A stretch of DNA of 64,000 bases from Sipunculus nudus (lineage: Eukaryota > Annelida > Sipuncula > Golfingiida > Sipunculidae): assembly GCA_026874595.1 (NCBI GenBank), contig CM049306.1:18345019-18409018 (forward strand). The letters run 5' to 3'. Below, in pieces: positions 7,501 to 61,791 of this stretch. The stretch's first letter is position 1, and each line of letters opens with the position of its first letter. The notes beneath the pieces were generated by a model, which saw nothing but the letters and a program-made list of their open reading frames with translations, ran no database searches and was not told where the DNA came from. The position numbers and the translations under genes are program-made.

Positions 7501-8294
7501 CTGTAGCAATTTGTGGTGCGTCATTCCGTATAATGGCTGGACTCTTTGAGTCCTCGCACTGGGGCTAAAGGGTCGCGCCCCTGGATGCAATCGACTACTA
7601 AAGTCCAAGGTGCATGAAGTCCATTTCCCAGGAGACGTTTCAGATATATACGCGTGGTCATTTAAGCACATGCACTGTTTTTTATTGTGCCTTTATCTTA
7701 CAAACCTCTACCTTTTACAGCCAAACCGCCTAGAGCCGTACCAGGGGGCGGAGTGTGTGGACGCTGCGGTGGATCTGCCGTCTGAAAAACTTACGCCTCT
7801 CTACTTAACAATAGGTAGAGGTTACTTTGGTAAAACGTTGTTTGCAAACGGCGTTTCAAGCCCGAAACCCGTGGAACTGGAACTGAGGGGTTTCTCTGGA
7901 CAAGTGGACGCGATGGAAGTCTACCCGCCACCCGGACAGCCGTCAATGTCCATTATATTCCAAGGTAAAGGTGTAATTCAATCTGCACAGATAGACGCGT
8001 CTGTGCGTGAAAAATAATCATATGATTTATAACGTTGGTGTTCCCATGTGTACGTCAGCCAATAAGCGTAGGCTATGTGTATATGCCTGAAAATAAGATC
8101 ATAGGATTTGCGTAAACTCCGGGATTCCCAGTAAAACAACGTTGCCCTTGCATCATTATGGCCGAGACCTGCTTGGTCCACAATGCCACTAAATGCTCAT
8201 GATAGTCAACGCATATACGCATAAACACGCACATTTTATAAATATATTTTAATGTAATATCAAATGAATGTAATCCACTTTGTAGTAAAAACCT

Positions 8295-8357
<63 letters not shown>

Positions 8358-11300
8358 ACGGAACCTAATATAAACAGATCACGTATGCGTGTTGAACACA
8401 AATTCTGTAACGGAGATTAAAAAAATAAAAAATCAGATCCTGTAACACTTGGCAGCGTGAAATGTCTAGGAAATGCAGAAATAGCACTTATCTTAGCATC
8501 AACTACGCTCCTGAGGCAGCGGAAATCTTGCGCTTCTAAAGAAGCAACTGATATTCACGCTGCCAGCTTTGACCGTTTATGATATATTTAGACACCAGAT
8601 GGCGGTTCGTTGTCCGCTGAAAAATACATGCGTATGATGCGATAAGCAGCCAACCAAATGCCAATAAACAAACACTCGACAGGCATCCTGGCTCCGCGCA
8701 TAGCTGCGCTTCAAGCGCCGCTTGATGAGTTTACGGTCGAATTTTAATTGCTCCCTCTGCATTCTCGCATCATCGACCGATTCGATTATGACATTATGAC
8801 TGTGTTAGCGTAGCCATGTATCTGTTGTCTGCAGAACTGAAACCAGCCAGCGAGGTGTGCAAGCAGCCTTTGTTGTTACGTTTCGTTTGAATTACAGCTC
8901 ACCGGTCGGGCATCCTAGGTACCCAAGGCCCTGAGCAACCATGTCTGGGGCAATTCTCTCTGAGCCTGTGGCCTGTTACCGGGGCGATGAGCTGTCAATC
9001 AAAACGAACTGAACATGCATGATTGGCTCCGTGTATATATAATTCTCGCTTGGCAGTGTCTTCCAGCACAAAGTCTCACCTGATTGGACAAAAATACAGT
9101 GCTCCCCTCTGGTGTAGCAATTCAGGATACGAGGTCATAACAAACAGCGCTTACGATATAGGTACCAGGCCTATAGTTAAAGCGCTGTGTAAAGAGCGTA
9201 AGCATCAACAGGTTTTACCTGACCCTGCCCTACAATATACCCAAAAATGTTACTTGTGCATGAAAAAACTTAGATTTTACTAAGTTGACGGTCAGACGTG
9301 CTCACTGAGTCTTTCGAAGAGGTCGCGAAGAATTTGCAGATGTTTCTCCGAGGTGTCGCTGTACTCGATGAGGTCATCAATATATGCATCGCAGCACTGA
9401 ATGTCATTGACAAGTAGTTCTTATGCCCGCAGTAATATTCCCAGAAATCAGATCTGACTTCAAATGGATAATGTGAAGCGGAACTGAAGTGTGCCTGTCT
9501 GAAAACACACCATAAACAAGTGAATGTGCACCAGTAAAGGACCTATTAGAAAATGGCAAAGTGTTTGCTAACATGAGAGTCTGGCCTGAACCAGTGTCCC
9601 TCAAAATTCTAATAGGGTTAGAATCTGAAAAATCACTTGAAAGTGATACAAAATCCTCGTGTATGAATGGCTCAAAAAACCCCATTACTGAGTCAGGAGA
9701 GGAATCTACTACCTCAGCCTCATCAAACAAAGAACTGACATTGACAGTGTCAGTCATAAACTCTGTTTCAGAGTTATCTAAGGAATCTACATCCTTTTTA
9801 TCATCAAACTCCTCACGGGAGTCAACAGAGGAATTTTCCTCAGCAGAAACAAACTTCTGTTTGTTATAAGATGACCTGGCCTCATTTGAAATACTCTCGC
9901 AAGAGTTATAAAAGGACTTAGCCTCGTTTAGAGAATACTCCTCGCAGGAGTCTTGAAAGGACATAGCCTTATTTAATACCTCGAAGGAATCAACTGAAGT
10001 TTTAACCCCGCAATCTACGGATTCTTCTTTGGAAGACGTCAAAAGACGGCACTGTTTTTTGACAACTGTTCAAGTTGATCAGAGTCCGGTTCGTCAACAA
10101 ATGTCTCAGGTTTGAAATCTGCCATGTTAAGATGTCAAAACAATAACAAAAAACCACTCAGATAAATCCTGTGAACAATGTACTGTAAACAATATGTAAT
10201 CTTGTAAACAATGTATGATAAAACAATGTGTCCAGGTCAAAGCCTAATAAATTTGAAAACTATTAAGCATCTCGACGAGAGCCCCCAATTTTTTGTTACG
10301 GAACCTAATATAAATAAATCACGTATGCGTGATTAACACATATTCTGTAACGGAGTTAAAAAAAATATAAAAATCAGATTCTGTAAAACTAGGCAGCGTG
10401 AAATGTCTAGGGGAATGAATAAAGAAGTATATATATATATATGATATACAAATATAATTTACAATTTATTAATGCAACAATCATTGCGGATTAGCTAATT
10501 TATGCATTTTTCTATGGTACTATGAAATATTATATATCACGGTTACCTCCACAAAAAAATTAAAAAAATATTACATATAAAAATACGGTGATTGGGAGAG
10601 GACATGCATAAAATTATGTTTATTTCATCCGAGAGATACTATCGCGTGGCTAGAAAAATAGCTGTCACACGCCAAAGCAGTTTCATTGAAGGCAAGATAT
10701 ATTAACAGGTTTATGAACAACAACAGATATATCGAGGTGACCTGGCTCTTAGCCCTGGAGGTATAACCGCCAAGATAAGTGTGCACGCTATTGTAACTTC
10801 GTGCGCATGCATGCATTTTTTATGTCGTGTTCACGCGATATAGTATCCCATGCGCACGAAATAAAAATAATGTTTCGCATATCTATTCCAACCACCGTAT
10901 GAAATACAAAAGCTAATTAGTTTGATCTGGTCGTTCGACCGCTTGTGAATTCTGACCAGAGTACTAACACCAGCGAGTACCTTATAGCCTGACAAATGGA
11001 TTTCGTCTTCCTCTTAGAAAACATTTTAGACAGTTTGCTCGCTCATGACAGAAAATCAAACAGAATTAATGCAAAAACTCACTGTTTAACCAAAAATAAT
11101 AGTTCTACTTTTTTAAAACTACTATATATATAAACCGCTGCATATAAATTATTTTATAATATGGGGTTTGATACGAATTAAATGGGAAAAACCTCTAACA
11201 GCTATTAAAAAAAAAGTCGCATGAAACGTGTTTTGTTTTACAGAAGGGGTGGTATACAAACACACTGTGGCAGGTCCAAAACCATTCCCCCTAGAAGCGG

Positions 11301-11746
11301 GATACCCGAAGCCGGTAAGCGAGGAATTCGGCTCAGAAATACCCACCCGCCCAGACTTTGTGCTAACTGGCATAACGTGGGAGGAGTTGGTAATTGCTAA
11401 GAATGGAACCGTGTACACTTACAAGTGAGTCTTAAACATTGACCAGAAGCCTGCTTAATTATAGAAGTTGTCAAATTCGGTAGTCACATGATCATTTACG
11501 TAACCGAGTCATTTGTCAACAAGGGGCTTTGCCCACTGGATGTAGGTTATATATTTATAGATATATATACACACACACATATATATATAAATATATATGT
11601 ATATATGTATATATATATATATATATATTGAAACCTGTGTAATTAGACCACCATTAGGACACCTATTAATGTCCTTAAAAGGACACCCTTAAAAGGTGGT
11701 CTTAATGGACAGTTGATCTCATTAGACACGTGGTCTTTATTGTTAT

Positions 11747-11818
<72 letters not shown>

Positions 11819-12499
11819 GGATAGATATTCACCATCAGTGTACGATTGTATAGCTTGAATGATATTTGTTTAATTTAAATGTTATTTACTATGATACTCC
11901 ATGTATGGTATAGAATCTTCGTACTCATCACCAATTTTTCTCGTGCTGTATATTCCGTCATTTTCAGTCTTTAATATTAAACGATGAGAAATATTTTTGA
12001 AGGATATATTAAGGTCTCAGATGATATTTTATGGTGCACTAAATATTTATCATTATATTCTATTTTATTTAACCAAGAGCTATTGGTTCATTCAACGAAG
12101 TGCTTTTGAATACCTGAAATGACAATGTGATATTATCATTATTTTCCATCAGAGGGGAACACATTTTGTACCGGCTTAAGACACTTCTCGTGACAAGTAT
12201 ACCGCAATATAACGACGCTGTAATGATTGGATTTAAGTGCGCGAGAGAGTGGTTATTGGTGTTTATAATGACTAATTTATGATGATGATTTAATACTTAT
12301 TTCTGTCTATAGTTTAACATCCAGGGAGGTTACAGGCGTTGAGGAATGGGAAATCTCTGCCTTCAGGAATGTTCCTGATAGTGTGACGGCGGCTAGCAGT
12401 ATTCACAACCTTCCCACTGGTGTCTGCGCTTTGTTTGTTTGTTACCCAAATGAGCAGTATATTGTGAGAATGACAGATGGCTTTACAATTTCTCCTTAA
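1529..12499 (+). CDS. Secreted PAN/apple-domain protein, four-exon model
   Basis: Exons are 1529-1861, 7721-7964, 11244-11424 and 12313-12499 (945 nt, 314 aa plus TAA). All junctions are GT-AG and phases agree (0, 1, 2). I start at the ATG at 1529 because it opens a signal peptide (residues 1-21, MKTCYIFSGLLILLPQILVC), after which the protein should be secreted. Residues about 54-105 look like a PAN/apple fold: Cys58, Cys62, Cys68 and Cys82 with CYSFNYG and NNCELND, and an N-glycosylation site at N44-Y-T. PAN domains bind proteins or carbohydrates in extracellular and immune-type proteins. The C-terminal 200 residues (exons 2-4) are proline- and aromatic-rich and I recognise no family. Poly(A) signals AATAAA occur at 12630 and 12949. 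The 5.9-kb first intron could hide another phase-0 exon. A possible alternative last exon lies at 21237. Domain call fairly sure; function unknown. Confidence 0.72.
2160..2940 (+). repeat. Tandem-core dispersed repeat with CGGA microsatellite
   Basis: Two to three diverged units of about 225 bp each carry AGGTCAAGGTCA, then a TTCGAACTTG block and TCAGAAATTG next to GGTGGCGCC (near 2360 and 2583). A (CGGA)n microsatellite at about 2860-2884 follows. The tail contains CATCAGCCTAAGGGCTGAGG, which can form a short hairpin. A tandem core, then a tetranucleotide microsatellite, then a conserved tail is the layout of bivalve 'pearl'-type and Helentron-associated non-autonomous elements; that assignment is inference. 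It lies in intron 1 of the PAN-domain gene. A poly-G run follows at about 2950-2968. Confidence 0.5.
3514..3545. repeat. (CTGA)n microsatellite
   Basis: About eight tandem copies of the tetranucleotide CTGA inside intron 1 of the PAN-domain gene. On the minus strand the array reads through as serine/glutamine/valine repeats in a spurious open frame. Confidence 0.85.
4066..7720. other. Intronic stretch without recognised features
   Basis: This is the second half of intron 1 of the PAN-domain gene, ending at the acceptor CCTTTTACAG at 7711-7720. It is AT-rich with many stops. Around 5500-7350 are diffuse blocks resembling old dispersed repeats, including GGCACCACCGGTGTC near 6120, a degenerate relative of the GGTGGCGCCACC motif seen in other repeats here. 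No intact element ends were found. Confidence 0.4.
8298..8353. repeat. (AT)n microsatellite
   Basis: About 56 bp of uninterrupted AT dinucleotide directly abuts the TGTTACGG end of the Gypsy LTR fragment at 8354. Confidence 0.9.
8504..9200. mobile_element. 697-bp non-autonomous DNA transposon, Mutator-like, copy A
   Basis: The ends are TACGCTC (8504-8510) and GAGCGTA (9194-9200), a 7-bp terminal inverted repeat. The element is flanked by perfect 9-bp direct repeats AGCATCAAC at 8495-8503 and 9201-9209. Copy B (62296-62998, inverted) is the same sequence with its own 9-bp duplication, which fixes both ends. Nine-bp duplications are typical of Mutator-like elements, so this is probably a non-autonomous derivative; no transposase is encoded. 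It contains a 14-bp perfect palindrome GCTTCTAAAGAAGC and a 61-codon open frame (8577-8762, minus) shared with copy B. It inserted into the 3' LTR remnant of the Gypsy element and is therefore younger than it. Confidence 0.88.
9299..9403 (-). pseudogene. Gypsy reverse transcriptase fragment
   Basis: On the minus strand this short piece reads DAYIDDLIEYSDTSEKHLQI and continues LRDLFERLSEH. It contains the YIDD form of the RT catalytic motif and the downstream helix typical of Ty3/Gypsy polymerases. It directly follows the protease-type frame, so a large part of pol is missing between them. It is too short to be functional. Confidence 0.72.
9404..10042 (-). pseudogene. Gypsy gag/aspartic-protease fragment
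   Basis: A 212-codon open frame, acidic and serine-rich in its first 130 residues, then a retropepsin-like segment with the active-site motif IRILRDTGSGQTLML at about residues 144-158. Downstream blocks SLVYGV and VPLHIIHLKSDLISG are familiar from Ty3/Gypsy proteases. The frame has no good ATG of its own. The likely element start (ATG at about 10125) is in another frame that stops after roughly 28 codons, so the polyprotein is frame-broken. It lies between the primer-binding-site region and the RT scrap of the same dead element. Confidence 0.75.
10271..10289 (-). other. Primer-binding-site-like block after the Gypsy 5' LTR
   Basis: On the minus strand the LTR end CCGTAACA is followed by five to six A/T residues and then TTGGGGGCTCTCGTCGAG. 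A TGGGGGCTC start just downstream of an LTR resembles tRNA-Pro-type primer-binding sites of retroelements. The match past the first nine bases is imperfect, so the primer tRNA is uncertain. Confidence 0.4.
11567..11630. repeat. (AT)n/(AC)n microsatellite
   Basis: Compound AT/AC dinucleotide run in intron 3 of the PAN-domain gene. Confidence 0.85.
11747..11826. repeat. (AT)n plus (GATA)n compound microsatellite
   Basis: An AT run passes directly into about ten GATA tetranucleotides in intron 3 of the PAN-domain gene. Confidence 0.9.
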
Positions 12500-13585
12500 A
12501 CCTAAAGCTTTTCTCATTTCTTGTGGCAACCTCCAAGGTTGGCCTTAAACAAATTGGATGACACCCTTTTGTGTGTCAACCAGCACAGGTACCAGCTAGG
12601 CGTTGCCCTAGGTGAAAGAAAATACAGAAAATAAAAGAAAAACAACAACAATTTCTCTGTATTCAAATAAGGATAAATGTCATTTGAAATAGTCAGTATG
12701 TGAACGGACATTTCAGCCAATTTATGAATTGGTTCAATAGCACAGAAGAGGCCAGCCAAGACCAGCGGTCTGGCGGCAGACGATTAATGGCGTCCTTTCT
12801 TTCACTGTGCCTATAGACATGCATGGTGCTGTGAATGGACCATGTATTAGTTGATAAAAAGATACTATTGCGAGGAAAGAAAACGGTGGACAATTTTATT
12901 TGGAGATTTTATTATGTCAGTTATGCAGGCGTCAAACTATCCGTAAACAATAAAATAAAGGTTAACAATTGAGTTTTTCTTTCTCTATCGCCGGAGGGAA
13001 CACATTGATAGTTTTAATCCGAAAATGATCACATATATGACCATTTCACAACAATACATGATAATCAGTTAGCACACCTTGGTATCCAGAACAATTTGTA
13101 GAGAGGTATATTGGGTTGGATAGTGCGCCGAAACGTGTTGAATTTTATACTGAAAACTGATCAGGCGAATAGACGTCTTTTCATCTTTGGTACACGAGCT
13201 GACCCCGTCAAATCGCAAACTAACTTTTGGTAAAGAAGTTATTAAAAAAGGAATGATAGGAAACAAAGAAAAATAAATAACAGAGATGAGCGAAAAAAAC
13301 GTCTAAGGTCAAGTTGTCTACATTATACATGTTGCACATTCGCTTTCTAAATCCTTGATCTGCAAATGCGAAATGTCCCTAAACCACGTAATCAATTGCG
13401 GCCTGTACTGCGATGTAAAGGGTATATACAACTAAGTTTTTTTGGAGCCAGGGACGCTAATGAAAGTTGAATGAAGCCTAAAACCATTGGAACAGAAAGT
13501 TGCAATTGGGGTTCAAGCTGATAAGATTTATCGATCGTCCAGCAAGGCGTGCATTAAGGAGAAATACGCAAACATCCAGAATAAT
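12500..13585. other. Downstream flank of the PAN-domain gene
   Basis: Presumed 3' UTR and intergenic DNA. It contains AATAAA at 12630-12635 and 12949-12954 as candidate polyadenylation signals. No coding exon or repeat with defined ends was seen. Confidence 0.45.
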
Positions 13586-13589
13586 ATGA

Positions 13590-14390
13590 TGTTACAGATG
13601 TCTCTTTAATTGCATGCAGCAGTCTTACACGGTATGTACAGCGCTAGCATTGTCCGTTGCCATGGGAGACACGCGAGCTGGCCCGGCCCATGCGTGGAGT
13701 CTGACGTGTAAACACAGCGGTCATGCTAGTCTCGGGCTTTCTCGCCTGGCCGTGCCGGGCCGGGCCGGCCCATGTGTGAACCCTGACATATAGAAACACA
13801 GCGTTCTTTGTTCTAGTTTGTTCTTTCGGTGTGTGTATTATGGGTTCTTTAGATTGTTCGTGAAATAGAAGTTTCTAGAATGTTCGGATAAAACGTTATA
13901 AATAAAGGGCTGTGTTAAGAGCCATGAGGAGGAGAGAGAAATATTCCAGCGTACAAGGAAGAGTGTTAGCCAGTCTGTAGACTTATCCGATAATTTCAGC
14001 AGTTATAGATCTTCTTCGAATTTGTAACGGATTTTATAAAGTTTTCAGTTTGCCTTTGGAATCACTATCAGAACTTCACTTTTGGATAACAACAAATTGA
14101 TTTTGTGATTGAACTGGACTGTTATTCTCTGAGAAGATTTATGTGAACTGTTCATCTGGATTATACATTATAAAGGACTTGTTGTCGCTGTGACAGTGGT
14201 GGTATTGTAATGTTAGAATTGTTTCAAGAATATATTATAATTATTTGTTAACAAAAAATCACTGACTTCTTTTTTCATTTCCCTAGACATTTCACGCTGC
14301 CTAGTGGTACGGAATCTGATTTTTTTATCTCCATTACAAAATTTATGTTCGTCACGACTACGTCATCTGTTGATATTAGGTTCCGTAACA
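13590..14390 (+). mobile_element. Gypsy solo LTR, 801 bp, plus orientation
   Basis: It starts TGTTACAG and ends CCGTAACA, so TG...CA with a 6-bp inverted terminus TGTTAC/GTAACA. It is flanked by a 4-bp direct repeat ATGA at 13586-13589 and 14391-14394. There is no internal region, so it arose by LTR-LTR recombination. It is homologous to the solo LTR at 39090-39903 and to the LTR pieces of the 8.4-10.4 kb element. Inside are two diverged copies of a CCGGCCCATG-type block and a promoter-like TATAAATA at 13897-13904. The short 4-bp duplication fits Gypsy-type integration. Confidence 0.88.
13897..13904 (+). promoter_or_regulatory. TATA box of the solo LTR
   Basis: TATAAATA about 300 bp into the LTR is followed by a transcribed-looking R/U5 segment. 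It is the likely original Pol II core promoter of the retrotransposon; whether it is still active cannot be told. Confidence 0.45.
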
Positions 14391-14884
14391 ATGATAGCTA
14401 TCCTTGATCATGACAAGAGCCGGTAGAAGCGGGGACAATTAAGAGTTGATCAACATACTGCGGAATTTCAAGACTTCCAGATTCTCCGTGTGTAAATCCA
14501 CAATTATGACGTTATTTAGTTCAGCTAAACGGTATGTGGTGGCACCTACCACACCGCCTCGACTGCACCTGATGATTGTCCATCCTTGAAAACCAGCACC
14601 CGTTCAAAGTTTGTGCTTCCCATCACTAATTTAACAACTAACAGGTGCCTGAAATCTCGATAAAAAACTGTTTTCATGGTCAGTATATCTTTGCGAGACC
14701 TTAAATATGGCAAGGCCATTGGCAAAAGGAACATTCAGGCTGGGATCAGACTGAAATCTCTATTTTAATCCAAGAACTCCGGCTCCCTGTCATCTATCAA
14801 AGATCATAAAAAGACCAATAAGAGATTTATTTGACATTTCTAATCTAATTTGCCAATTAAAGAAATGTTTTCTTACCCTGGACT

Positions 14885-16112
14885 CACACGACTGTACATA
14901 TGCTGTGGCAAATATTTCACTAGCACTTCAATATCTTTGCAGTGTATGCAAGATTCGAAATGCATTGTTATATGATACTATATACTTCTGATTAACACTT
15001 TTTTAACTCTTACACAAAGGGCACAGATATAAATATTACTACAGTGAGCCTGGCACAGTGTCTTCTTCACTGCAGATGAACAAGAATGAAAAACTGTCAC
15101 TCTTTACAAAAAAAAAGCTCTTAGCCTGGCCATTATTTCATCAACATAAGTGAGAGTGTTATTTCCAAAATGCCCAAGGTACTTATATGACCGAGTTACA
15201 CTTAGCACCTGACCATCTAACTTGATATCACTTCTATAGCCCCTGTTCTTGGTATCAATGAACATGACTTGTGATTTCCTTACATCGTATGTCATTTTGT
15301 TTCTCATACACAACACATCCATTAGTCAAGGTTTTTATCCCTTTATCAGATGGAGCAAATACTACCAGATCATCTGCATACATTAAATAATTCACTTGTA
15401 TCATTTGTATAATTCAGTCTTTGCAACACACCCGATTTGTAACGTAGATCACATAGATCGTTCATATGAACATTAAAGAGTAAGGGGAAAGGATTCCACC
15501 TCATCGCACCCCATAAGAGAAGTCAGACGGTATTGTTTCCCATTTAACGCATAACTGTTTCTTACAATACCAAAAGCAAAGCACTCTGCACAAATATACT
15601 GCATGGAATGTTAGTTAAAGTAATTTACTCATTACTTTACAATGATTGACCTTGTCGAAAGCATTTAAAGCGTCCAGAAAAACAACATACATATCAGAAT
15701 TAAATTTCATATGATATCGAAGTAATTCTTTTAACATCAATGCACACATTTCTGCTCCTTGCTTATCCCTAAAGCCAAACTACATTTCTGTAGTAGAAAG
15801 GGACTGTTTATAAAGACATGGTTTTAAAGAAACTGAAGTATATCAAACTTGATACTAAAGGAAATTGGGTGATGATCGGATAAAACACAACTTAATAAGA
15901 CTTTTTCAGAGAGGTTAATGCCTGCAGAGTATCCTCAGTACACAATAGATGATTTAACCAAGAAGAAGTATTCCCGGAATTACTCAGCAATGCATAAGTA
16001 TTAGGTGGCAGAAATATGCTATAAGTAATAGTAAGGTTGTTTTCAGAGCAATGAGTCTGCATTATGTTACCAAATAAGGACATTTTAGACAAGTCAGCAA
16101 TAAAATCACCAG

Positions 16113-17112: not shown

Positions 17113-20100
17113 ACGGGTAGTCGACAAGCGACTACGTGTATCCGCCAAAATCAGAGTAGGACGGGTTAAGTTAGGCATGGATTGAGTGGCAAGGGGAAAT
17201 AGAGTTACATGTGTTACATATTAGAATGGATGTCTGCCACGTAAACATGATTGTAGCGCCACAGGTTGAAAAGTCAAACCACTGCAGAGATATGAGTGAT
17301 TTTATCCCAAGGCAGACAAACAGATGGACGCTGTGCAAAAATGGCTGCAGGTGGCGCCACCATTTTTGTGTATGTTATAAAGCTATCCAAGGGTTACATT
17401 TGTGTAAAATTGTTTTCCTGATTGGTCAAATGAGTCAGGAGATATAAGCATTAATGTCTGCAGCGTGAACGTGAATGAAGCTGGCGCCACCTGTCATAAA
17501 ATCAAGAAAGCTATCCAGGATGAATACGGAAGCCGAATTACAGTTAATTTGGTCAAAACACTGCAGAGATATGAGTGATTTTAAGCCAAGGCAGACAAAC
17601 AGATGGACGCTGTGCAAAAATGGCTGCAGGTGACGCCACCATTTTTGTGTATGTTATTAAGCTATCCAAGGGCTACATTTGTGTAAATTTTTTTTCCTGA
17701 TTGGTCGAACGAGTCCGGAGATACTGATTGGTTGAGCGGTTCCCGAGATATGAGCTTTGATGTCTGCAGCATGAACGTGAATGTAGGTGGCGCCACCTGT
17801 CATAAAATCAAGAAAGCTATCTAGGATGTATATGCATGCCGAATTTCAGGTAATTTGGTCAAACCACTGCAGAGATATGAGTGATTTTATCCCGAGGCTG
17901 ATGAACAGATGGATACTGTGCAAAATTGGCTGCAGGTGGCGCCACCATTTTTGTGTATGTTATAAAGCTATCCAAGGGCTACATTTGTGAAAAATTGTTT
18001 TCCTGATTGGTCAAATGAGTCAGGAGATATAAGCATTAATGTCTGCAGCGTGAACGTGAATGAAGCTGGCGCCACCTGTCATAAAATCAAGAAAGCTATC
18101 CAGGATGAATACGGAAGCCGAATTACAGTTAATTTGGTCAAAACACTGCAGAGATATGAGTGATTTTAAGCCAAGGCAGACAAACAGATGGACGCTGTGC
18201 AAAAATGGCTGCAGGTGACGCCACCATTTTTGTGTATGTTATTAAGCTATCCAAGGGCTACATTTGTGTAAATTTTTTTTCCTGATTGGTCGAACGAGTC
18301 CGGAGATACTGATTGGTTGAGCGGTTCCCGAGATATGAGCTTGGATGTCTGCAGCATGAACGTGAATGTAGGTGGCGCCACCTGTCATAAAATCAAGAAA
18401 GCTATCTAGGATGTATATGCATGCCGAATTTCAGGTAATTTGGTCAAACCACTGCAGAGATATGAGTGATTTTATCCCGAGGCTGATGAACAGATGGATA
18501 CTGTGCAAAATTGGCTGCAGGTGGCGCCACCATTTTTGTGTATGTTATAAAGCTATCCAAGGGCTACATTTGTGTAAAATTGTTTTCCTGATTGGTCAAA
18601 TGAGTCAGGAGATATAAGCATTAATGTCTGCAGCGTGAACGTGAATGAAGCTGGCGCCACCTGTCATAAAATCAAGAAAGCTATCCAGGATGAATACGGA
18701 AGCCGAATTACAGTTAATTTGGTCAAAACACTGCAGAGATATGAGTGATTTTAAGCCAAGGCAGACAAACAGATGGACGCTGTGCAAAAATGGCTGCAGG
18801 TGACGCCACCATTTTTGTGTATGTTATTAAGCTATCCAAGGGCTACATTTGTGTAAATTTTTTTTCCTGATTGGTCGAACGAGTCCGGAGATACTGATTG
18901 GTTGAGCGGTTCCCGAGATATGAGCTTGGATGTCTGCAGCATGAACGTGAATGTAGGTGGCGCCACCTGTCATAAAATCAAGAAAGCTATCTAGGATGTA
19001 TATGCATGCCGAATTTCAGGTAATTTGGTCAAACCACTGCAGAGATATGAGTGATTTTATCCCGAGGCTGATGAACAGATGGATACTGTGCAAAATTGGC
19101 TGCAGGTGGCGCCACCATTTTTGTGTATGTTATAAAGCTATCCAAGGGCTACATTTGTGAAAAATTGTTTTCCTGATTGGTCAAATGAGTCAGGAGATAT
19201 AAGCATTAATGTCTGCAGCGTGAACGTGAATGAAGCTGGCGCCACCTGTCATAAAATCAAGAAAGCTATCCAGGATGAATACGGAAGCCGAATTACAGTT
19301 AATTTGGTCAAAACACTGCAGAGATATGAGTGATTTTAAGCCAAGGCAGACAAACAGATGGACGCTGTGCAAAAATGGCTGCAGGTGACGCCACCATTTT
19401 TGTGTATGTTATTAAGCTATCCAAGGGCTACATTTGTGTAAATTTTTTTTCCTGATTGGTCGAACGAGTCCGGAGATACTGATTGGTTGAGCGGTTCCCG
19501 AGATATGAGCTTGGATGTCTGCAGCATGAACGTGAATGTAGGTGGCGCCACCTGTCATAAAATCAAGAAAGCTATCTAGGATGTATATGCATGCCGAATT
19601 TCAGGTAATTTGGTCAAACCACTGCAGAGATATGAGTGATTTTATCCCGAGGCTGATGAACAGATGGATACTGTGCAAAATTGGCTGCAGGTGGCGCCAC
19701 CATTTTTGTGTATGTTATAAAGCTATCCAAGGGCTACATTTGTGTAAAATTGTTTTCCTGATTGGTCAAATGAGTCAGGAGATATAAGCATTAATGTCTG
19801 CAGCGTGAACGTGAATGAAGCTGGCGCCACCTGTCATAAAATCAAGAAAGCTATCCAGGATGAATACGGAAGCCGAATTACAGTTAATTTGGTCAAAACA
19901 CTGCAGAGATATGAGTGATTTTAAGCCAAGGCAGACAAACAGATGGACGCTGTGCAAAAATGGCTGCAGGTGACGCCACCATTTTTGTGTATGTTATTAA
20001 GCTATCCAAGGGCTACATTTGTGTAAATTTTTTTTCCTGATTGGTCGAACGAGTCCGGAGATACTGATTGGTTGAGCGGTTCCCGAGATATGAGCTTGGA

Positions 20101-20610
20101 TGTCTGCAGCATGTACGTGAATGTAGGTGGCGCCACCTGTCATAAAATCAAGAAAGCTATCTAGGATGTATATGCATGCCGAATTTCAGGTAATTTGGTC
20201 AAACCACTGCAGAGATATGAGTGATTTTATCCCGAGGCTGATGAACGATGGATACTGTGCAAAATTGGCTGCAGGTGGCGCCACCATTTTTGTGTATGTT
20301 ATAAAGCTATCCAAGGGCTACATTTGTATAAAAAAAATTTTTCCTGATCGGTCAAACGGTTCCCGAGATATGTGGGTTTATGTGTGGAAACAGACGCACA
20401 AACGGACGCTGGGCAGAGAGGAAAGGTCAGAGGTCAAGGCCAATTGGTTAGGCACCAGTTCACATGTGACCAGATAATTGGAGTAAGTTTCGGAAAAATC
20501 CATCCAGTAGTCTCAGAGGAGTTCTCCGGAAACGAAAGCGGCGGCGGCGGCGGCGGTGGAACCCGGTCAAAAACATAGTATCCGCAAAACTTCGTTATGG
20601 CGGATCCAAT
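17113..20610 (+). mobile_element. Tandem-core element, copy 1 (pearl/Helentron-associated type)
   Basis: The left end ATACGGGTAGTCGACAAGC contains a hairpin (GTAGTCG-ACAAG-CGACTAC) followed by GTATCCGCCAAAA. The right end has a (GGC)n tract near 20540-20560 and then GTATCCGCAAAAC, a few bases and GGCGGAT, which is another hairpin and a subterminal inverted repeat of the left end. The same two ends in the same order flank an independent copy in inverted orientation at about 56065-57780, so this is a mobile unit and not just a satellite. No transposase is encoded. End hairpins, a tandem core and an embedded microsatellite resemble Helentron-associated or bivalve 'pearl' elements; the superfamily is inference. 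Confidence 0.68.
17253..20400 (+). repeat. 585-bp higher-order tandem array (four ~146-bp monomers per unit)
   Basis: GGTGGCGCCACC or a one-base variant recurs at 17354, 17484, 17632, 17790 and 17936, so four monomers of about 130-158 bp make one unit. The whole unit then repeats every 585 bp about five times, shown by identical blocks starting near 17435, 18020, 18605, 19190 and 19775. A diagnostic site alternates (TTTGTGTAAAATTG versus TTTGTGAAAAATTG), so a 1170-bp double unit was also duplicated. Short open frames of 60, 67 and 81 codons recur on both strands because the units are nearly identical; I treat none as a gene. The last unit carries a deletion and a poly-A expansion at about 20250-20340. 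Confidence 0.92.
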
Positions 20611-30700: not shown

Positions 30701-33700
30701 CCCCCCCCCCCCCCCTTTTTTTAGCCAAAACAACTTTTTTTAGGGTTTCAAACCAGATTTTGCGACCTGGACCCCCTCCCTTCTGGACCAGAGGCCTTTT
30801 TTTTGTTTTCTTTTAGTCTTCCTGGGTTTGGCCCTCCTCTTTTTTAAAACCCTGGATCCGCCGCCCGCTCTCCCCGTCATGCATCATATCACCACCAATT
30901 ATACATGGATGCGCCCTCCCGGCATGCATCAGATCAAAAGTAACCAAAAATTCTTCCCTCAAGCATGAATCTCTATATCATACACTTCGTTTGATGATTT
31001 CTCTCCTATTTAGCTCTGTCTAAAAAGAAAGAATAAGGATTCATATGTGATTACATAGCTGTCATAAACAGTCTAACACCTGTCGCAATCTGTAGAGACT
31101 GCAACATCAACAAGCAAAGTTCAATAGGAGCGCATTATCATAGAAGACAAAGTTGTGACATCTACAGGACTACTTGGTAAAGTTGTGACATCTACAGGAC
31201 TACTTGGTAAAGTTGCGACTTTTTACAAAACGGTTTTACTATCCTAAAGATTGGGCCAGTGTATATCTGTTATATCAGAAAGACCCCGTAGAGAGTTAAT
31301 GGATCCAGGGATCACGCTCATTCATCCTTATTAGTTTAATAAGAATATTGTTTCGTTCCCTCTATAAACCTATAAAGGACATTAGTTTGACTCTTTTATT
31401 TGTGCCATGCTCTATTGATTTCCCCCCCCCCCCCCCCATATTACTTGTAGCGTTATATTTTTAACTTATGTGAGATGTAAATACATGTACAACTATTTTA
31501 TACAAGAATGCCCGTTGCATTAGCGATCGCCTGATGTGTTAGGTTCAAATGACATAGTACCGCGGGTATTAACAAATGTGCACAAATACAAATATGGGCC
31601 AGGAAGTAAGGTCGTCTTTATACTAGGCGGGACGGGAAGACGTCTTAATATGAGGCAAACCCTGGGAGGAAAAAAATTCTTGGATAGGTCTTACTATATT
31701 ATATTTTCTTCACTATCTGCTAATCATCATAATTCATCTTTGACATCATGCAGCACCATGCTCATCATTCCAGCACCTCTCTCTCTCTCTCTGTTATATA
31801 AAATAATCATTACTTTTTTTCATTTGCGTCAAGAATGTTCTCAGCACGTGCTTCATTATTATCAGTAAACGTCTGCCTCTAAGCACATTTCTCAATTTTC
31901 CAAATATTTTATCAAATAACATTGCTCAATAAGAATATTTAAAATACAATTTGTATTTGGTATTTTGTAAATGTATTTTATTTCTGACCTGTCCATCACT
32001 GAGCCTGTTGAATTCAGGTTTGATGAAGAACAGGATGCCGTCCTTGGCCCCGGGTAGTGTTACACCACGTACAAGCAACACGGCCAGGATGAGGTACGGG
32101 AAGGTAGCCGTCACATACACTACCTACAAATAAAAAATAATCCACACGTAGCCGTCACATACACCACCTACAAATAAAATATATATCCCACATTTAGCTG
32201 GTACAAACACCACCAACAAACAAAAAATAATCCACACGTAGCCGTCACATACACCACCTACAAACAAATAAAAATATCCACATGTAGCCGTCACATACAC
32301 CACCTACAAATGAAATATATATCCCATATTATCTGGTACAAACACCACCAACAAACAAAAAATAATCCACACGTAGCCGTCACATACACCACCTACAAAC
32401 AAACAAAAATATCCACATGTAGCCGTCACATACACCACCTATAAACAAAAAAATATTCTCACGTAGCCGTCACATACACCACCTACAAACAAACAAATAA
32501 TCAACACTGGTATGCATGTAAAAGTTGCTTATTGGCAGTTTGGTGTCGTAAATATTTTAAAATCAGAATGCGGCAAACATCACCTAAACACACAGAAGAA
32601 CGAACACGCTGAATGGTAGGCACTTTAATTCTGCTTATTGGCTGCTGGGTATCATCAATATCCTATAACACAGTTACTGTGAAAGTGGGATTGCCAATCA
32701 AAGGAGGCGTCATGTCACTGGCCACAGACCAAGAAATATCAAGGTGTTTATAAAATAAGGAAAGTTAATTTTTGTCAGTTTTTATTTCAATTTGACATAA
32801 GGCCTCCTGATATTTATTGAATTAATATAGTGCGGAACTGTGTTAAAATATTTAAATTTTGCAGATTAATCGCCATATTTCAATGGGCAGCCCTACTGAG
32901 AAACGCGTCGGATTGAGTGAAAATATAGAATATACTTTCATTAAATATACTTCGATAAATCATTGATAACGAAATGAATAACAGACACACACTATTGATA
33001 TTGATTTTTCACAAACGATGCACTTCACTGCAATTTCTATGTAAGAAACTATGTTGGCGAGCATTAATGGAGTAGAATCAAAGAAATTTATTAAGTTTCA
33101 TAAAATATGAGACAATCGTTCCTACATTTAGTATAAGAAAACTGAGGATCAACACAGCCATTACCAGTCCCATAACGGTTAATAGGATACGAAACTTTAT
33201 TTCATGAATGTCACAGGGGAGTACTAGCCCGCAAGAAAATTCATTAGGAGTAATAAGAATGTTGGGGGTTACCCTAGTGTTGACATCCAACCTTTGAGTC
33301 AGTCCTTACCTTCCCTGTCCAGCGAACTCCTTTCCAGATACAGAAGTAACATATAACCCACATGACGAGTAAGGCCATGGCGAGCTGCCAGACTACACCG
33401 TCAGGGCGGTCTATCCCCGGGGAGATCTGTAGAATCTGACGCCTGACAAGGAAAAATAAAAAAAAATCACACCTGGTGTCATTTTCGAGATCAATTGGAA
33501 TCGAAAGGATAATTGTATGGAATGAAATGCTGAAAAGAAATAAGTTTGCACTGATCGAACTGACCGAATTTTATTTTTTTTTTTTGTATTTTTTTAAATG
33601 GAGATATCCGCCTCCATTTTTTAATGCTATGTACATATGCAGAATTCCTTTCCGGTTTTTGGACTACGTGAAAGGGCAGTTTCACACGCTTCCATTTTAT

Positions 33701-47759: not shown

Positions 47760-48468
47760 TAACAGAATGAAGACGCCTTAGTGTTGACTAACTGTTTAAT
47801 TCAACCACGAGCTTTCGAAGCTTATAGCTTCTTCATCAGGTGTCAAGTGGAAAGGTATAGAAATCGGCTGTATATATATGTTAGATAAACAATTTCTAAT
47901 GATCATAATGCATGGTATAGTGTAATGGATCTGTGATTGGCTATTCTGAATTTATATCATGTTGACCCGGGTTCCGAGTGTGTCATTGTTATTTACCCAT
48001 AATGCTAGGTTATGACTGTCCGGGTTATGTTGAGTTCATGTCCTCTGACATAATAAAGGTTTAAAATTCATTATGCTCATCGGCTCAATGTTGATGATGA
48101 TTGACGACTGATGTGGTGGCGATCTGGTTGTGCAAGTCCATGATTATGAATAGAGATAATCCATATGTAAATGGTGTATTAAATGATATATTAAAAAGTC
48201 TGTATCAGAAAGTTTACGTATAGGATGATGACGTTTGTTGATTACTTGATATTATTATTGTGTGTAAGCTTGAGAGGTGATCTCACAACACGGCGGTATC
48301 AGTGGCGGGAATGTGCACGTATGCATGAGGAATGACGTCACGTCATTATCAATATGGAGGGGTCGTTCGGTGCTATTAATATTATGGTATGTCTCAATGT
48401 CTGTAGTGTGCCATGAAACCGGCATCGCGATTTAATCCTTTCCTTATGGTGTCAAATTTATCAATCAG
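47754..48468 (-). repeat. Penelope pseudo-LTR, downstream copy
   Basis: This 715-bp direct repeat is identical in length to 51182-51896. Differences seen include GGCTATTC/GGCTACTC, CCCGGG/CCCAGG, TTGTTG/TTGTCG and GACGTC/GACGCC. The ORF's last 25 codons and stop lie within it. Confidence 0.92.
47813..47839 (-). ncRNA. Hammerhead-ribozyme-like core, downstream copy
   Basis: The minus strand reads CUGAUGA, then a 5-bp stem (GAAGC/GCUUC) with loop UAUAA, then GAAA. These are the conserved core boxes and stem II of a hammerhead. Hammerheads are known in Penelope pseudo-LTRs. I could not identify convincing stems I and III or the cleavage site by eye, so activity is uncertain. Confidence 0.5.
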
Positions 48469-50994
48469 TTTTAGTTCCCATATCTGTCGTTGTCTTGTGT
48501 CGGTAAGGTGGCCCTTTAGAACGCAAATCTGCATGCATTCTGGCGAGTGTTCCTGTTGAGAAAAATGTTCTCCGACCGGTAAGTTCGTGTCTAGCGCTTT
48601 AATGGACTGTCTCTTGCCATTTATTCTAAGACTTAGCATTAGGCTGGTTTCGCCTATATAAATAACTCCTGGACATATTTTACATAGGATGGCATAGACT
48701 ACACCTTTACTGGTGCAGTCAAAGTGTCCCTGAATAGGGTGTTTGGCACCATGGATAATTAGGGTTTCCATGCGGACTATGAGTGGGCATGTGCGACAGC
48801 GCGGTCTTTTACATGGGAATGTACCGTTAGTGTTATCATATCTGAAGCTTTGATTTTGTACTAATTTTTTATGTAGATTATGGGGTTGTTTAAAAGAGAG
48901 GAGTGGTGTGTCGGGAAAGAGGGGTTTTAATGTAGGGTCCGATTCTAATAAAGGTTGCAGATCGTGGATAATTCTTTTTAGAGGTTTTAGTATGCGGGGA
49001 TGAAATGTTGTAACTAGCGGTGTGCGAGTGTTTTCTATTTTGATTTTTGGGGCGAGTAGAAAGCTGCGTGAGATTTTAGTGGCTTTTCCTTTTTGTTTTT
49101 CTACCGTTTTCTCTTTGTATCCCATGTTGATAAAAATATTTTGTAGTTTCGCTATGTTTCGATTTCTATCGGATATGTCGGAACATATCCTATTGTATCT
49201 TATGGCTTGACTAAATATAATGGATTTACCAACATGGGGTGGGTGACAACTAGTAGGATGGATATAATTATACCTGTCGGTGGGTTTGCGGTAAATAGAT
49301 GTGTGAATGTTGCCATCTGTTAATTTTACTGTGGTGTCAAGGAAATTAATCCTATCTACGGAGTACTCCATTTTGAATTTTATGTCGGGGTGAAAATTAT
49401 TGAAATCTCTATAAAATTTTAATAGGTTTTCACGACCATGATGCCATATAAGAAATATATCGTCGATGTAACGTAGGTAGAGTAAAGGTTTAAATGTTTG
49501 TTGATCAAGAAAATTTTCTTCCATTGAAATCATAAATGTGTTTGCATATTGTGGCGCCATGCGTGTACCCATGGCCGTTCCCATCATCTGAAGATAAATC
49601 TCATTGTTGAAGCTAAAATAATTATGGGTGAGAATAAATTCCGCTAGTTTTTTTACGACTGATGGGGCTGTCACGTTTTCGGTATGAAATTTTGTGAGTA
49701 ATTTTAAAGATGCAGCAAGCCCGTCGTTATGGGGGATATTGGTGTAAAGGGATTCCACATCAAGGGTTGCTAAGATAGAATGTGGTGGAATTTTGTTGAT
49801 TTGGCCAAGTTTGTTTAAGAAATCATTGGTGTCTCGAACGTAACTACTGGAATTTAGGACTATAGGTTTTAAACATGATTCTACAAAACCGGATATTTTT
49901 TCAGTGAGTGTACCCAATCCGGAGATGATGGGACGACCAGGGTTGTTTTGTTTGTGAATTTTGGGAAGTGTATAGAAGTAGCCGGGTTTAGGATCACATG
50001 GGATTAATTCATTAATTTGATGTTGTGTTTCTAGAGGGAATGTGGAGATAAGACCGTTTAGCTCTTGCAGATATTGTGGGGTTGGGTCTTTTTCTAATTT
50101 TTTATAATACTTATGATTATTAAGTTGGCGATACGCTTCTTTAACATAGTCATTCTTATTTTGTATGACAGTGGCTCCCCCTTTATCGGCAGGTCTGATC
50201 ACAATTTCATTATTATTCTGTAATTTATTCATTGCTTTGCGCTCACCGTTTGTTAAATTATATTCTGGTTTGGTTATTTTGTCTATAATTTCAGTTTTAA
50301 TCCTGCTCCTGAAAGTGTTAATGTATAAATCTAACTTTTGATTCCGCCCGGGTAGAGGTGTCCATCTGCTGAAACGAACTGTTTTAGTTTTTTTATCCGT
50401 TTGCTTGTGTAGTCCGCATAATGCCTCTGTGTCTTTGCTAAAATATTCTGCCAGGCGGAGTCTCCGGAAAAAAACTTCTAGATCTCCGCAAAGCGCTATG
50501 TTGTCTATTGATTTAGTCGGGCAAAACTTGAGACCCTTGGAGAGTAATTTAGTTTCAGAGTCAGTTAATATATAAGCTGATAAGTTGATAATCTTAGATG
50601 GATCAGATGTCGCAGGTCTGTCTGTGTGTTTGTTGTCCGACTTGTCTGTATAAACGGTCAAGTCATGTGTGAATTTGGGTCTGTCGAAATGTTCGAGTGT
50701 ATATTGGTTCGAATTGTTTTTAACAGGGGGTTTTATGAAATTATGGCCGTGTTGTGAGAGTCTCTCAAGCTTACCTTTCTTCCGGGTGATATAAATGTGT
50801 AGCTCCCGCGTATACACTTTCATGATTTCAGTGAGTGTTTCAGAGTCCGGGTTGATTTGCTGAAGTAATTCTTCATACTTCCTGTTGTACGTGTCCTTTC
50901 TGGAGTACAGAACATGTGAGAGGTGGTTTCTGAGTTTCTTCGACAAATTTCTACACAGCTTGGCTGAGTAGTCTGTATTGTATGTAGTGGCCAT
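48394..50994 (-). CDS. Penelope-like reverse transcriptase with GIY-YIG endonuclease
   Basis: The 866-codon ORF starts at ATG 50994. It has telomerase-related RT motifs: IRPADKGG (267), PGRPIISG (352), LDVESLYTNIP (411), MGTAMGTRMAP (471), the catalytic YIDD (509-512) and FLDTT (551). A Cys cluster CKRPRCRTC (728-736) follows. Next is a GIY-YIG nuclease: GVVYAI (764), YIGET (779), an Arg at about 790 and Glu840 in WELKLI. It would nick the target and copy the element RNA from the nick in the nucleus. The frame stays open about 130 nt upstream of the Met without another ATG and reads ESDIYFINQCKKKDLIPKG, which looks like genuine N-terminal sequence. The nearest upstream ATG (51142) is in a different frame, so the N-terminus may carry a one-base frameshift or start elsewhere. 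Core domains look intact. Confidence 0.93.
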   Translation of the reverse strand: MATTYNTDYSAKLCRNLSKKLRNHLSHVLYSRKDTYNRKYEELLQQINPDSETLTEIMKVYTRELHIYITRKKGKLERLSQHGHNFIKPPVKNNSNQYTLEHFDRPKFTHDLTVYTDKSDNKHTDRPATSDPSKIINLSAYILTDSETKLLSKGLKFCPTKSIDNIALCGDLEVFFRRLRLAEYFSKDTEALCGLHKQTDKKTKTVRFSRWTPLPGRNQKLDLYINTFRSRIKTEIIDKITKPEYNLTNGERKAMNKLQNNNEIVIRPADKGGATVIQNKNDYVKEAYRQLNNHKYYKKLEKDPTPQYLQELNGLISTFPLETQHQINELIPCDPKPGYFYTLPKIHKQNNPGRPIISGLGTLTEKISGFVESCLKPIVLNSSSYVRDTNDFLNKLGQINKIPPHSILATLDVESLYTNIPHNDGLAASLKLLTKFHTENVTAPSVVKKLAEFILTHNYFSFNNEIYLQMMGTAMGTRMAPQYANTFMISMEENFLDQQTFKPLLYLRYIDDIFLIWHHGRENLLKFYRDFNNFHPDIKFKMEYSVDRINFLDTTVKLTDGNIHTSIYRKPTDRYNYIHPTSCHPPHVGKSIIFSQAIRYNRICSDISDRNRNIAKLQNIFINMGYKEKTVEKQKGKATKISRSFLLAPKIKIENTRTPLVTTFHPRILKPLKRIIHDLQPLLESDPTLKPLFPDTPLLSFKQPHNLHKKLVQNQSFRYDNTNGTFPCKRPRCRTCPLIVRMETLIIHGAKHPIQGHFDCTSKGVVYAILCKICPGVIYIGETSLMLSLRINGKRQSIKALDTNLPVGEHFSQQEHSPECMQICVLKGHLTDTRQRQIWELKLIDKFDTIRKGLNRDAGFMAHYRH

Positions 50995-51181
50995 CGGATT
51001 CTTGACAAGAAGTCCCTTTGGTATGAGGTCCTTCTTCTTGCACTGATTGATGAAATAAATATCGCTCTCAATTCTTGATATTCTTGTTCTTGATCTTGAT
51101 GAGTTTCCACTTGTTCCGGCTGTATGCGGCGTCGGACGTCATGATGTAGAATGCGTATATAGCCGTGTTAGTCCCTCAGTG

Positions 51182-56064: not shown

Positions 56065-57780
56065 CAGTAATTGTATCTGCCAAAACAGAGTTTTGCGGAT
56101 ACTATGTTTTCTGGCCACAACCGCCGCCGCCGCCGCCGCCGCGTAGGTGTCCGGAGAACTCCTCCGTAACCGCTGGGCGGAATTTTACGAAACCCGGGAT
56201 TATGTTCGGGTCACATGTGAACTGCTGCGCCCCGATTTTGTTTTGACCTCTGACCTTTCCTCTCTCCAGTGCGTCCATCTGTGCGTCTGTTTTGACACAT
56301 TAACCCACACATCTCGGGAACCGTTTGACCGATCCGGAAAAAAAAATAGCACAAATGTAGCCCTTGGATAGCTTTATAACATACATAAAAATGGTGGCGC
56401 CACCTGCAACCATTTTTGCACAGCGGCCATCTGTTCATCTGCCTTGGGTTAAAATCACTCATATCTCGGCAGTCGTTTGACTTATCTGACTAAAATTTTG
56501 CAGGTTTATACATCTTGGACAGCTTTCTTGATTTTATGACAGGTGGCGCCACCTACATTCACCTTTAAGCTGCAGACATCCAAGCTCATATCTCGAAAAA
56601 TATTTGGCCGATTGGGCCAAAATCTTGCATGTGTATAGATCTCACATACCTCCTTATCATATGCAAAACTGGTTGCGCCACCTTCAACCATTTTTGCACA
56701 GCGTCTGTCTGCTTGTCTGCCTTGCAATAAAATCACTCATATATCTCTGCACTGGTTTGGCTTATCTGCCTAAAATTTTGCAGGTTTATACATCTTGGAT
56801 AGCTTTCTGGACTTTGTGGCAGGTGGCGCCACCTACATTTATGTTTACGCTGCAGACATCCAGGCTTATATCACGGCAACCGTTTGACCGATTGGGCCAA
56901 AATTTTGCATGTGTATAGATCTCACATAGCTCTTTATTATACGTAAAACTGGTGGCGCCACCTGCAACCATTTTGCACAGCGTCCGTCTGGTTGTCTGCC
57001 GTGGGATAAAATCACTCATATCTCTGCAGTGGTTTGACTTATCTGCCTAAAATTTTGCAAGTTTATACATCTTGGATAGCTTTCTTGATTTTATGACCGG
57101 TGGCGCCACCTACATTTATGTTTAAGCTGCAGACATCCAGGCTTATATCACGACAACCGTTTGACCGATTGGGCCAAAATTTTGCATGTGTATAGATCTC
57201 ACATAGCTCTTTATCATACGCAAAACAGGTGGCGCCACCTGTAAACATTTTTGCACAGCGTCCGTCTGTTTGTCTGCCGTGCGATAAAATCACTCATATC
57301 TCTGCACTGGTTGGACTTATCTGCCTAAAATTTTGCAGGTTTATACATCTTGGATAGCTTTCTGGATTTTGTGGCAGGTGGTGCCACCTACATTAATGTG
57401 TACGCTGCAGACATCCAGGCTTATATCTCGGGGACCGATTGGGCCAAAATTTTCTCACATAGCTCTTTATCATACGCACAACTGGTAGCGCCACCTTCAA
57501 CCATTTTGCACAGCGTCCGTCTGTTTGTCTGCCGTGGGATAAAATCACTCCTATCTGGGCAGTGGTTTGACTTTTTGTATTTGTATACAACTTTGATAGC
57601 TTTCTGGATTTTGTGGTAGGTGGCACAACCTACATACACATTTCGGCTGCAGACATCCATGCTAATATGCAACACACCTCACTCCCCTTGTTACTCAATC
57701 CATGCCTCACTTCATCCGTTCCACTCCGATTTCGGCGGATACACGTAGTTGCTTGTCGACTACCCGTATTCATTCGGTAT
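56065..57780 (-). mobile_element. Tandem-core element, copy 2 (inverted)
   Basis: It begins TTGTATCTGCCAAAACAGAG, then GCGGATACTATG and a (CCG)n tract at about 56120-56142. It ends GTAGTTGCTTGTCGACTACC followed by CGTAT. These are the reverse complement of the right and left ends of the 17113-20610 element. The core holds about ten monomers with GGTGGCGCCACC or variants (near 56393, 56546, 56680, 56825, 56955, 57105, 57231, 57383, 57489, 57620) in an alternating two-monomer pattern of about 285 bp. Monomers differ from each other far more than those of copy 1, so this array was not recently homogenised. Confidence 0.8.
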
Positions 57781-60781: not shown

Positions 60782-61791
60782 ATCTTCAGCCGCATATACT
60801 GACACTTACTTGGCAAGCGACTATGTTTTCTTCCATCTATCAACTTGAGAAACAATATTTTTCACCAAATATGAGGGCCAATATGTTGAATCTCTCTTGA
60901 GAAAAGAGCATTCATTTCTTTTATGGAAATGGGAAGGTAGGTGGCGCCACCTGTCTGGTTTATGAGAAAATTTTCCAAGATGGATGGACATGCCAAATTT
61001 AAGACCTATACCTTGAACCACTCCGGAGATATGATCAATTTTCACCCAAAGCACATGTGCTTCGAATACAAGGCGGAGGTATCCAAAATCAATTGACATG
61101 CACAATTTCAGCCCAATCTGTCCATTAGTTTTAGACTTATAATACTCACAGTACTGTCAAGTGGCAATGATGAGAATTAAAAGGCCCGAAAACAAGAAAA
61201 GGACAAAAGGTGGCGCCACCAGTCTTCCGCAGAAGACAAAGCTATCCAAGATATTCGATCAATTCGTTTATTGGACCAATCCATACATCCCTTATTGAGA
61301 TATTTATGATTTTGTGTGATTTTCACCATATATGGCAATATTCAAGGTCAAGGCCACTCTCATAGGAAAGGCCATGATCCCAATTTATATATACATCATC
61401 CCATAACCCATGTCAATGTATTTGCATAATACGAAATAATTCTGTCCATTAGTTTTTGACTTATAATGCTCACAGTACTGTTAAGTGGCAATAATAGGGG
61501 TATTAAACGGCACGGAAACAAGAAAAGGATAACAGGTGGCTCCACTAGTTTCCGGTACATGACAACACTATCCACGATATTCGGTCAAGTTGATTTTTGG
61601 ACCAATCCATGCATCCCTTATTGAGATATTTATGATTGTATGTGATTTTAACCGTATATTGCAATATCCAAGGTCATGGCCACTCTCATATATATCATCC
61701 CATAACCCATGTCTATGTATATGCATAATGTGAAATAATTCTGCATTAGTTTTTGACTTATAATGCTCACAGTAGTGACCTTGGATATTGA
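60782..61791. repeat. Tandem core between the inverted-repeat arms
   Basis: Units of about 300-330 bp start near 61116, 61442 and 61740 with TCTGTCCATTAGTTTTTGAC. They contain GGTGGCGCCACC (61209) or its variant GGTGGCTCCACT (61534), ATCCCTTATTGAGATATTTA and AAGGTCAAGGCCACTCTC. A further monomer at about 60940 has GGTGGCGCCACC, then CCACTCCGGAGATATGA, resembling the monomers of the 17-20 kb array. Confidence 0.8.

Follow-up and report, generated by a model that had tools for sequence, protein, structure and literature searches.

The window analysed here is a stretch of 64,000 nucleotides from the genome of Sipunculus nudus (assembly GCA_026874595.1, contig CM049306.1), and its minus strand carries a gene of the SLC6 transporter family, with matches to Pfam SNF (PF00209) running across three consecutive exons in the order of the profile. 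The first of these lies at 33310-33442 (profile positions 161-204, E = 3.1e-11), ends in ...WTGK/gtaagg with the slash marking the exon-intron boundary, and provides the donor of the intron considered below. It is followed by a 135 nt exon of 45 residues in phase 0 at 31989-32123 (profile positions 205-248, E = 1.8e-15) and by a further exon from 30601 (profile positions 250-284), with additional SNF stretches downstream of these three. By these exon boundaries the intron spans 32124-33309 (1186 nt), and a tandem array is found at its 3' end. The same genome contains 44 exons homologous to the exon that adjoins the array, all 44 of which start in phase 0 after AG. No RNA family was found at gathering score when Rfam was run over the window, and Pfam gave no match in the two frames searched over positions 1-14999.

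The array occupies 32104-32507 on the minus strand and consists of nine tandem units of approximately 44 bp with a higher-order period of 135, TRF reporting periods of 44 (9.0 copies), 90 and 135 (3.0 copies, 89% matches, score 605). Each intact unit combines about 24 nt of intron end, comprising a T-tract and TAG, with the first 20 nt of the SLC6 exon 32123-31989. Read 5' to 3' on the minus strand the junctions fall at 32482, 32438, 32392, 32348, 32303, 32257, 32213, 32167 and 32123, neighbouring junctions being 44-46 nt apart, and the last and 3'-most of them, in unit 9 (32104-32147), is the real one. Upstream of it are six intact units with AG, namely units 1 (32463-32507), 2 (32419-32462), 3 (32373-32418), 5 (32284-32328), 6 (32238-32283) and 8 (32148-32193), in which TTTGTAG, or TTTATAG in unit 2, is followed by GTGGTGTATGTGACGGCTAC. 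The remaining two, unit 4 (32329-32372, junction 32348) and unit 7 (32194-32237, junction 32213), are degenerate copies without AG in which TTG replaces TAG and the exon part has diverged. Units 2-3-4 and 5-6-7 recur as a block, which accounts for the 135-bp period. The sequence GTGTTGATTATTTGTTTGTTTGTAG (32507-32483), ahead of the junction of unit 1, is similar to the intron part of the other units, and the repeated piece can therefore be taken to begin about 24 nt before the AG and to extend 20 nt into the exon. In all six intact copies the exon's GTAGTG reads GTGGTG, a single-base and synonymous valine difference (GTA/GTG). The first-pass annotation had described the position and nature of the array in the same terms, and both TRF and our reading of the units agree with it. 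Its starting unit, taken to be the real intron/exon junction of 32123-31989, is indeed the junction unit at 32123, with the exon assigned to SLC6 by Pfam; the "at least six" further copies with TTTGTAG or close variants and the first ~20 exon bases are the six intact units, in each of which 20 exon nt are present, and the two degenerate copies said to lie between them are units 4 and 7.

A further stretch of the intron, at 32563-32683 on the minus strand and about 101-106 nt upstream of unit 1, is a probable older and diverged duplicate of the junction region with a junction-like site at 32583. Global alignment of 32683-32563, a stretch picked for alignment after a repeat search had flagged it, with 32578-32462 gave a score of 70.1, whereas 500 dinucleotide shuffles averaged 13.5 and did not exceed 47.0. 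Taken by itself, the 44-bp unit aligned to the upstream intron with a local score of 28, which was not significant (100 shuffles: mean 21.0, maximum 32). Judging from the longer alignment, it is probable that the same junction had been duplicated earlier, with a longer unit, before the array was formed.

The strength of the repeated acceptors was assessed with a matrix made from 41 distinct sister acceptors, which as its own training sites, scored without leave-one-out, have a median of 12.8 and a range of 5.6-20.1. The real site scores 10.8 and the six intact copies score between 12.7 and 16.0 (14.7, 16.0, 16.0, 12.7, 15.5 and 13.2 for units 1, 2, 3, 5, 6 and 8 respectively), while the degenerate units 4 and 7 each reach 7.3 and the junction-like site of the older duplicate 12.8. 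Of the 42 AGs that were scanned across the intron, seven reach at least 12.7, these being the six array copies and the older copy at 32583, and the next-best AG beyond the array and the old copy scores 4.6. This bears out the earlier suggestion, in that the splicing machinery would meet several near-identical acceptors in this intron. It had also been proposed that use of an upstream copy would retain array sequence in the mRNA, which follows directly from the order of the units, and reading the sequence after splicing to each upstream unit we met a stop codon in all eight cases. Since the TAG of the real acceptor lies in phase 0, any in-frame reading that begins upstream would halt there at the latest. 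In-frame inclusion of the array, which we considered, was rejected on the same count. On sequence alone the upstream copies would thus outdo the real site as acceptors, and splicing to them would be unproductive.

A DNA search of the 1.43 Gb genome, with very common words skipped, placed the array at this single position. Its anatomy, on the other hand, recurs at other junctions, and the view expressed in the first-pass annotation that a tandem array seeded by a splice site is unusual does not apply to this genome, although its statement that the array was seeded by a functional splice site is supported, the unit being the real SLC6 junction. We surveyed 1.5 kb on each side of the 44 homologous exons, or 41 loci after removal of the near-identical L015-L017. 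A script detected local junction copies at 8 of 101 acceptors, the window's included, and at 0 of 103 donors (P = 0.003); we do not claim an acceptor bias, the myosin loci described below showing two acceptor and two donor arrays. Array clusters, defined by a TRF period of at least 20 and a score of at least 80, numbered 21 around the 41 SLC6 exons and 11 of them contain a splice junction, eight as called by the script and three by eye. The script-matched arrays lie at L002 (the window array), L028, L029 (two), L035, L036 (entered in the enrichment count with a period of 172) and L037 (two), the weakest match being acceptor B of L037 with 79% over 38 nt and 9 exon nt. The three read by eye are an acceptor array at the exon SDGVLGLSESEGVHDLG (L004, TRF 6.2 copies), an acceptor array with a 64-bp unit and TRF 12.2 copies that precedes the exon VWIDAGTQ (L007), and a donor-side mirage (L026, with L047) in which 15.0 copies of a 52-bp unit, ...AAATCCTCCGGGAAG/GTGAGT, begin at the end of the SLC6 exon ...GIKSSGK, the unit carrying the consensus donor AAG/GTGAGT. 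At another SLC6 locus (L003) a 25-bp unit is present in at least 59.5 copies between -1499 and -13, counted from the exon start, the array running past the start of the locus; it reaches to 13 nt before the real SLC6 acceptor and contains T-tract-like sequence and no exon bases.

As a gene family independent of SLC6 we surveyed 30 exon loci of the myosin head, drawn from 75 matches and in part overlapping. These contained nine array clusters, merged by hand; seven of them, all but L064 and L071, were read for junctions, and four of the nine were called by eye as junction arrays. Two are acceptor arrays, at the exons MKDERNYHIF (L066) and VDYFNNKIICDL (L077), and two are donor arrays, one of a ~36 bp unit following ...NSILT with 27 copies besides the real one (L083, ~1737-2736 in gene orientation) and one of a ~20 bp unit at ...VKDYK/gtaggt with 51 copies besides the real one (L082, ~2161-3238 in gene orientation). 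Reading by eye found no junction in the clusters at L069, L084 and L082 (493-1252). Taken together there are 15 junction arrays around 71 exon loci (41 SLC6 and 30 myosin), these loci being centred on exons, and a single true site may be accompanied by up to 49 donor copies that keep GT or 13 acceptor copies that keep AG. Of the repeats examined in gene regions, about half are copied splice junctions. On contig C2 (44849337-44852248) we also observed four adjacent matches to the same myosin-head stretch (model ~109-153), the arrangement that mutually exclusive exons of a muscle myosin gene would give.

These counts bear on whether the window array might be an ordinary intronic minisatellite that touches its exon by chance, with junctions being in no way special here. 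Counted by position this has some appeal, since intronic probes away from known exons have a local copy in 486 of 4028 cases (12%) as against 8 of 204 junctions (8/101 acceptors and 0/103 donors). Counted by array it fares poorly, in that random placement of units of equal length would put a junction in 1.83 of the 21 SLC6-locus arrays, compared with the 11 observed (P = 5e-8) or the eight called by script (P = 1e-4). With two extra unannotated junctions assumed per locus the expectation rises to 2.58 and the corresponding values are P = 2e-6 and P = 1e-3. We have used the all-array figure of 11/21 here, as a split at period 40 (11/13) was drawn after the data were seen. The four of nine myosin arrays, called by eye, compare with 0.76 expected when five junctions per locus are assumed (P = 0.0025). 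The enrichment lies in which sequences seed arrays and not in the amount of gene that is repeated, and we consider a chance contact unlikely.

We then asked how far the copies are constrained. Across 14 junction arrays, a set that leaves out acceptor B of L037, agreement with the array consensus is 90% both for exon columns (3286 of 3639 column-copies) and for intron columns (3322 of 3682), and the AG/GT columns reach 95% (338 of 356) versus 90% elsewhere. In 13 arrays, acceptor A of L037 being outside this set as well, 162 of the 177 copies retain the splice dinucleotide, where random pairs of columns average 148.4 (P = 0.07); the figures are 72 of 85 against 67.9 for AG at acceptors alone (P = 0.29) and 90 of 92 against 80.5 for GT at donors alone (P = 0.12). 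Retention of the splice dinucleotide across the 13 arrays is therefore a weak tendency at most. In the window array itself 6 of the 8 copies retain AG, compared with 6.8 for the average column pair, a negative result for the idea, raised with the first-pass annotation, that the AG and its tract might be better conserved than the remainder of the unit. Selection on the copies is not supported, the exon and intron parts being equally diverged and the dinucleotide test giving the P value above, though the AG/GT columns are better matched. On present evidence we regard the window array as not functional.

Minisatellite-like tandem duplications of exon-intron boundaries have been described in amphioxus as "mirages", a term introduced for Adh3, and were also seen in globins, TnC and PGBD5 (PMC3087553, PMC3902484). 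The window array matches this type. It resembles the amphioxus BflGb6 case in being built of tandem units of intron end and exon start (PMC3087553), and its nine units span a boundary and adjoin the real one, which is the last of them. As in amphioxus, AG/GT persists in many of the copies though not in every one (here 6 of 8), and the real exon is intact (PMC3087553, PMC3902484). Units derived from the 3' boundary of an exon are described for BflGb9 (PMC3087553) and have their counterpart here in the donor arrays at exon ends (L026, L083 and L082). The unit of 44 bp compares with 150-160 bp in BflGb6, 157 bp in BflGb9 and 10-72 bp in Adh3, and length instability has been reported for the amphioxus arrays (PMC3087553, PMC3902484). 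These sources also describe concerted evolution inside the cluster, from which the boundary copy stands apart (PMC3087553, PMC3902484); in the window, likeness of the copies among themselves and separation from the boundary copy is seen at a single site only (GTGGTG versus GTAGTG). Whereas the amphioxus examples concern a handful of genes in a cephalochordate, we find 15 arrays around 71 loci in a different host, and what is new is accordingly the host and the scale, that is the density of mirages. The array is ordinary within its own genome and of a kind rarely described. Among the matches listed from the open literature there was no report of mirages in molluscs. A minisatellite in human IFI6 (6-16) reportedly contains multiple splice donor sites; it likewise repeats a splice site, but the repeated sites are donors and not acceptors as in the window array. 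Tandem duplication of AG/GT proto-splice sites has been put forward as a route to intron gain (PMC2891723, PMC2812944) and is similarly a local tandem multiplication of splice signals. There the duplications involve coding exons and new introns are made, whereas the window array sits in an existing intron and gives no sign of a new one (PMC2891723, PMC2812944).

In view of these observations we consider it likely that the array is a mirage minisatellite which grew by local tandem duplication and whose last copy is productive, and it is most likely a neutral by-product of such duplication. A piece of approximately 44 bp, made up of the terminal ~24 nt of the intron (with the presumed branch region, T-tract and AG) and 20 nt from the start of the exon, would have been duplicated in tandem, after which the array would have grown by slippage or unequal exchange, including a three-unit step of 135 bp. 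This growth probably took place on top of the older ~105-bp duplication of the same junction. The copies would extend into the intron with the 3'-most junction still adjoining the complete exon, so that this junction would remain a productive acceptor, and the array would be tolerated because the copy next to the exon stays usable. We infer that exon definition holds splicing to the last copy, through the part of the exon beyond +20 and the downstream donor, both of which are absent from the copies, and stray use of upstream copies would presumably be cleared by nonsense-mediated decay. The last site is the sole junction with a whole exon and a donor after it, and on the evidence of this arrangement it would be the site used. 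Several points run counter to the proposal. Among the seven acceptors the real site scores lowest, and a rule by which the strongest or the first AG wins predicts an upstream site. The AG/GT columns match the consensus somewhat better than the others do, 3 of the 11 SLC6 and all four of the myosin junction arrays were called by eye, and the loci surveyed are centred on exons.

The same acceptor scores might point to a switch in which regulated use of the upstream copies, as poison acceptors, yields stop-containing transcripts that set the level of the transporter. Such a regulatory array would look much the same in sequence, with six upstream copies that outscore the real acceptor and a stop in all 8 upstream uses, and the slightly better preservation of AG/GT columns across all arrays is in keeping with it. 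We nevertheless think it very unlikely, as the AG and exon part of the window array are kept no better than other columns, AG has been lost in 2 of 8 copies, and arrays occur at unrelated junctions, donors included. In amphioxus, moreover, mirages appear to have left splicing undisturbed, RT-PCR having suggested regular splicing (PMC3087553). Intron gain or exonisation in progress, in which copies with an acceptor and a following GT turn into small exons or supply new ends of introns, a course suggested for amphioxus globins, seems to us highly improbable. Unit 1 does offer an acceptor, 20 nt and then GTGAGA, and the model is a published one (PMC3087553, with a related model in PMC2891723), but a 20-nt exon would shift the frame and there is no clear constraint on the copies. 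False expansion of the repeat during assembly hardly deserves credence, for although an aberrantly assembled mirage is on record from the amphioxus draft genome (PMC3087553), simple stuttering is unlikely here because the copies vary in sequence and spacing, and the same structure is present at independent loci.

Beyond the mirage origin of the window array, the surveys allow a broader reading which we put forward tentatively and rate at rather less than an even chance. Splice junctions would be the preferred birthplace of intragenic minisatellites in this genome, with a process tied to the boundary repeatedly duplicating acceptors and donors alike, a large share of intron arrays consisting of copied sites, and the spliceosome routinely picking out the one true site. 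Candidates for such a process may be transcription or splicing intermediates, or a step in composition at the boundary. If true, a genome rich in mirages would amount to a natural experiment on splice-site choice, and mirages this common would be a source of intron growth and of new splice sites. The mutational question raised is why the duplications start at exon-intron boundaries.

Elsewhere in the window we observed a palindrome, GGTGGCGCCACC, which with at most one mismatch occurs 34 times compared with 0.01 expected. Its sites fall at 17350-20285, 56393-57495, 2366-2594 and 60940-61220, mostly at alternating spacings of ~130-157 bp in long-period arrays. It looks like a dispersed satellite-like family, and no exon match was seen. 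An open frame of 914 aa at 48394-51138 on the minus strand carries a reverse transcriptase domain (PF00078, E = 1.2e-8) and by eye looks like a Penelope-like element, and a further open frame at 1484-1879 on the plus strand carries a PAN domain (PF00024, E = 2.7e-7).

The assembly of 1.43 Gb (1426.5 Mb) comprises 17 contigs of 61-111 Mb, which together make up 1396.9 Mb, and 136 others with 29.6 Mb. Three exons of one of its muscle myosin genes have a molluscan chain as their best PDB match, squid (3i5f) for two and scallop (1dfk) for the third. For the exon led by scallop, all eight squid and scallop chains come before the rest (85-86 bits against 76, a lead of about 10); for one squid-led exon the lead is about 6 bits (83 against 76.8), with scallop just under a vertebrate chain, and for the other about 1 bit. 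In lists with no chain known to come from amphioxus or an annelid, these matches would speak for a mollusc as host and against a vertebrate-like chordate, and we consider a cephalochordate host unlikely. A search for the GFP family, which amphioxus possesses, gave no hit, as did one for the mollusc haemocyanin domain; control genomes gave no hit in either, and the haemocyanin result is accordingly uninformative. Approximately 30 cytochrome P450 genes are present in it as full-length single open frames (model ~1-460, intronless), several of them clustered, as at C14:33257373-33338643 and C1:57122810-57169387. The best matches to ABC transporters fall on bacterial-looking contigs. Equally scoring, intact and bacterial-looking ABC transporters are found on the small contigs C61, C62, C64-C66, C69, C72, C75 and C89-C91 (loci L089-L095), and a pattern scan with one of these against 84,980 prokaryote species returned only relatives at 28-33% identity. 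These small contigs probably represent associated bacteria that are present several times over.
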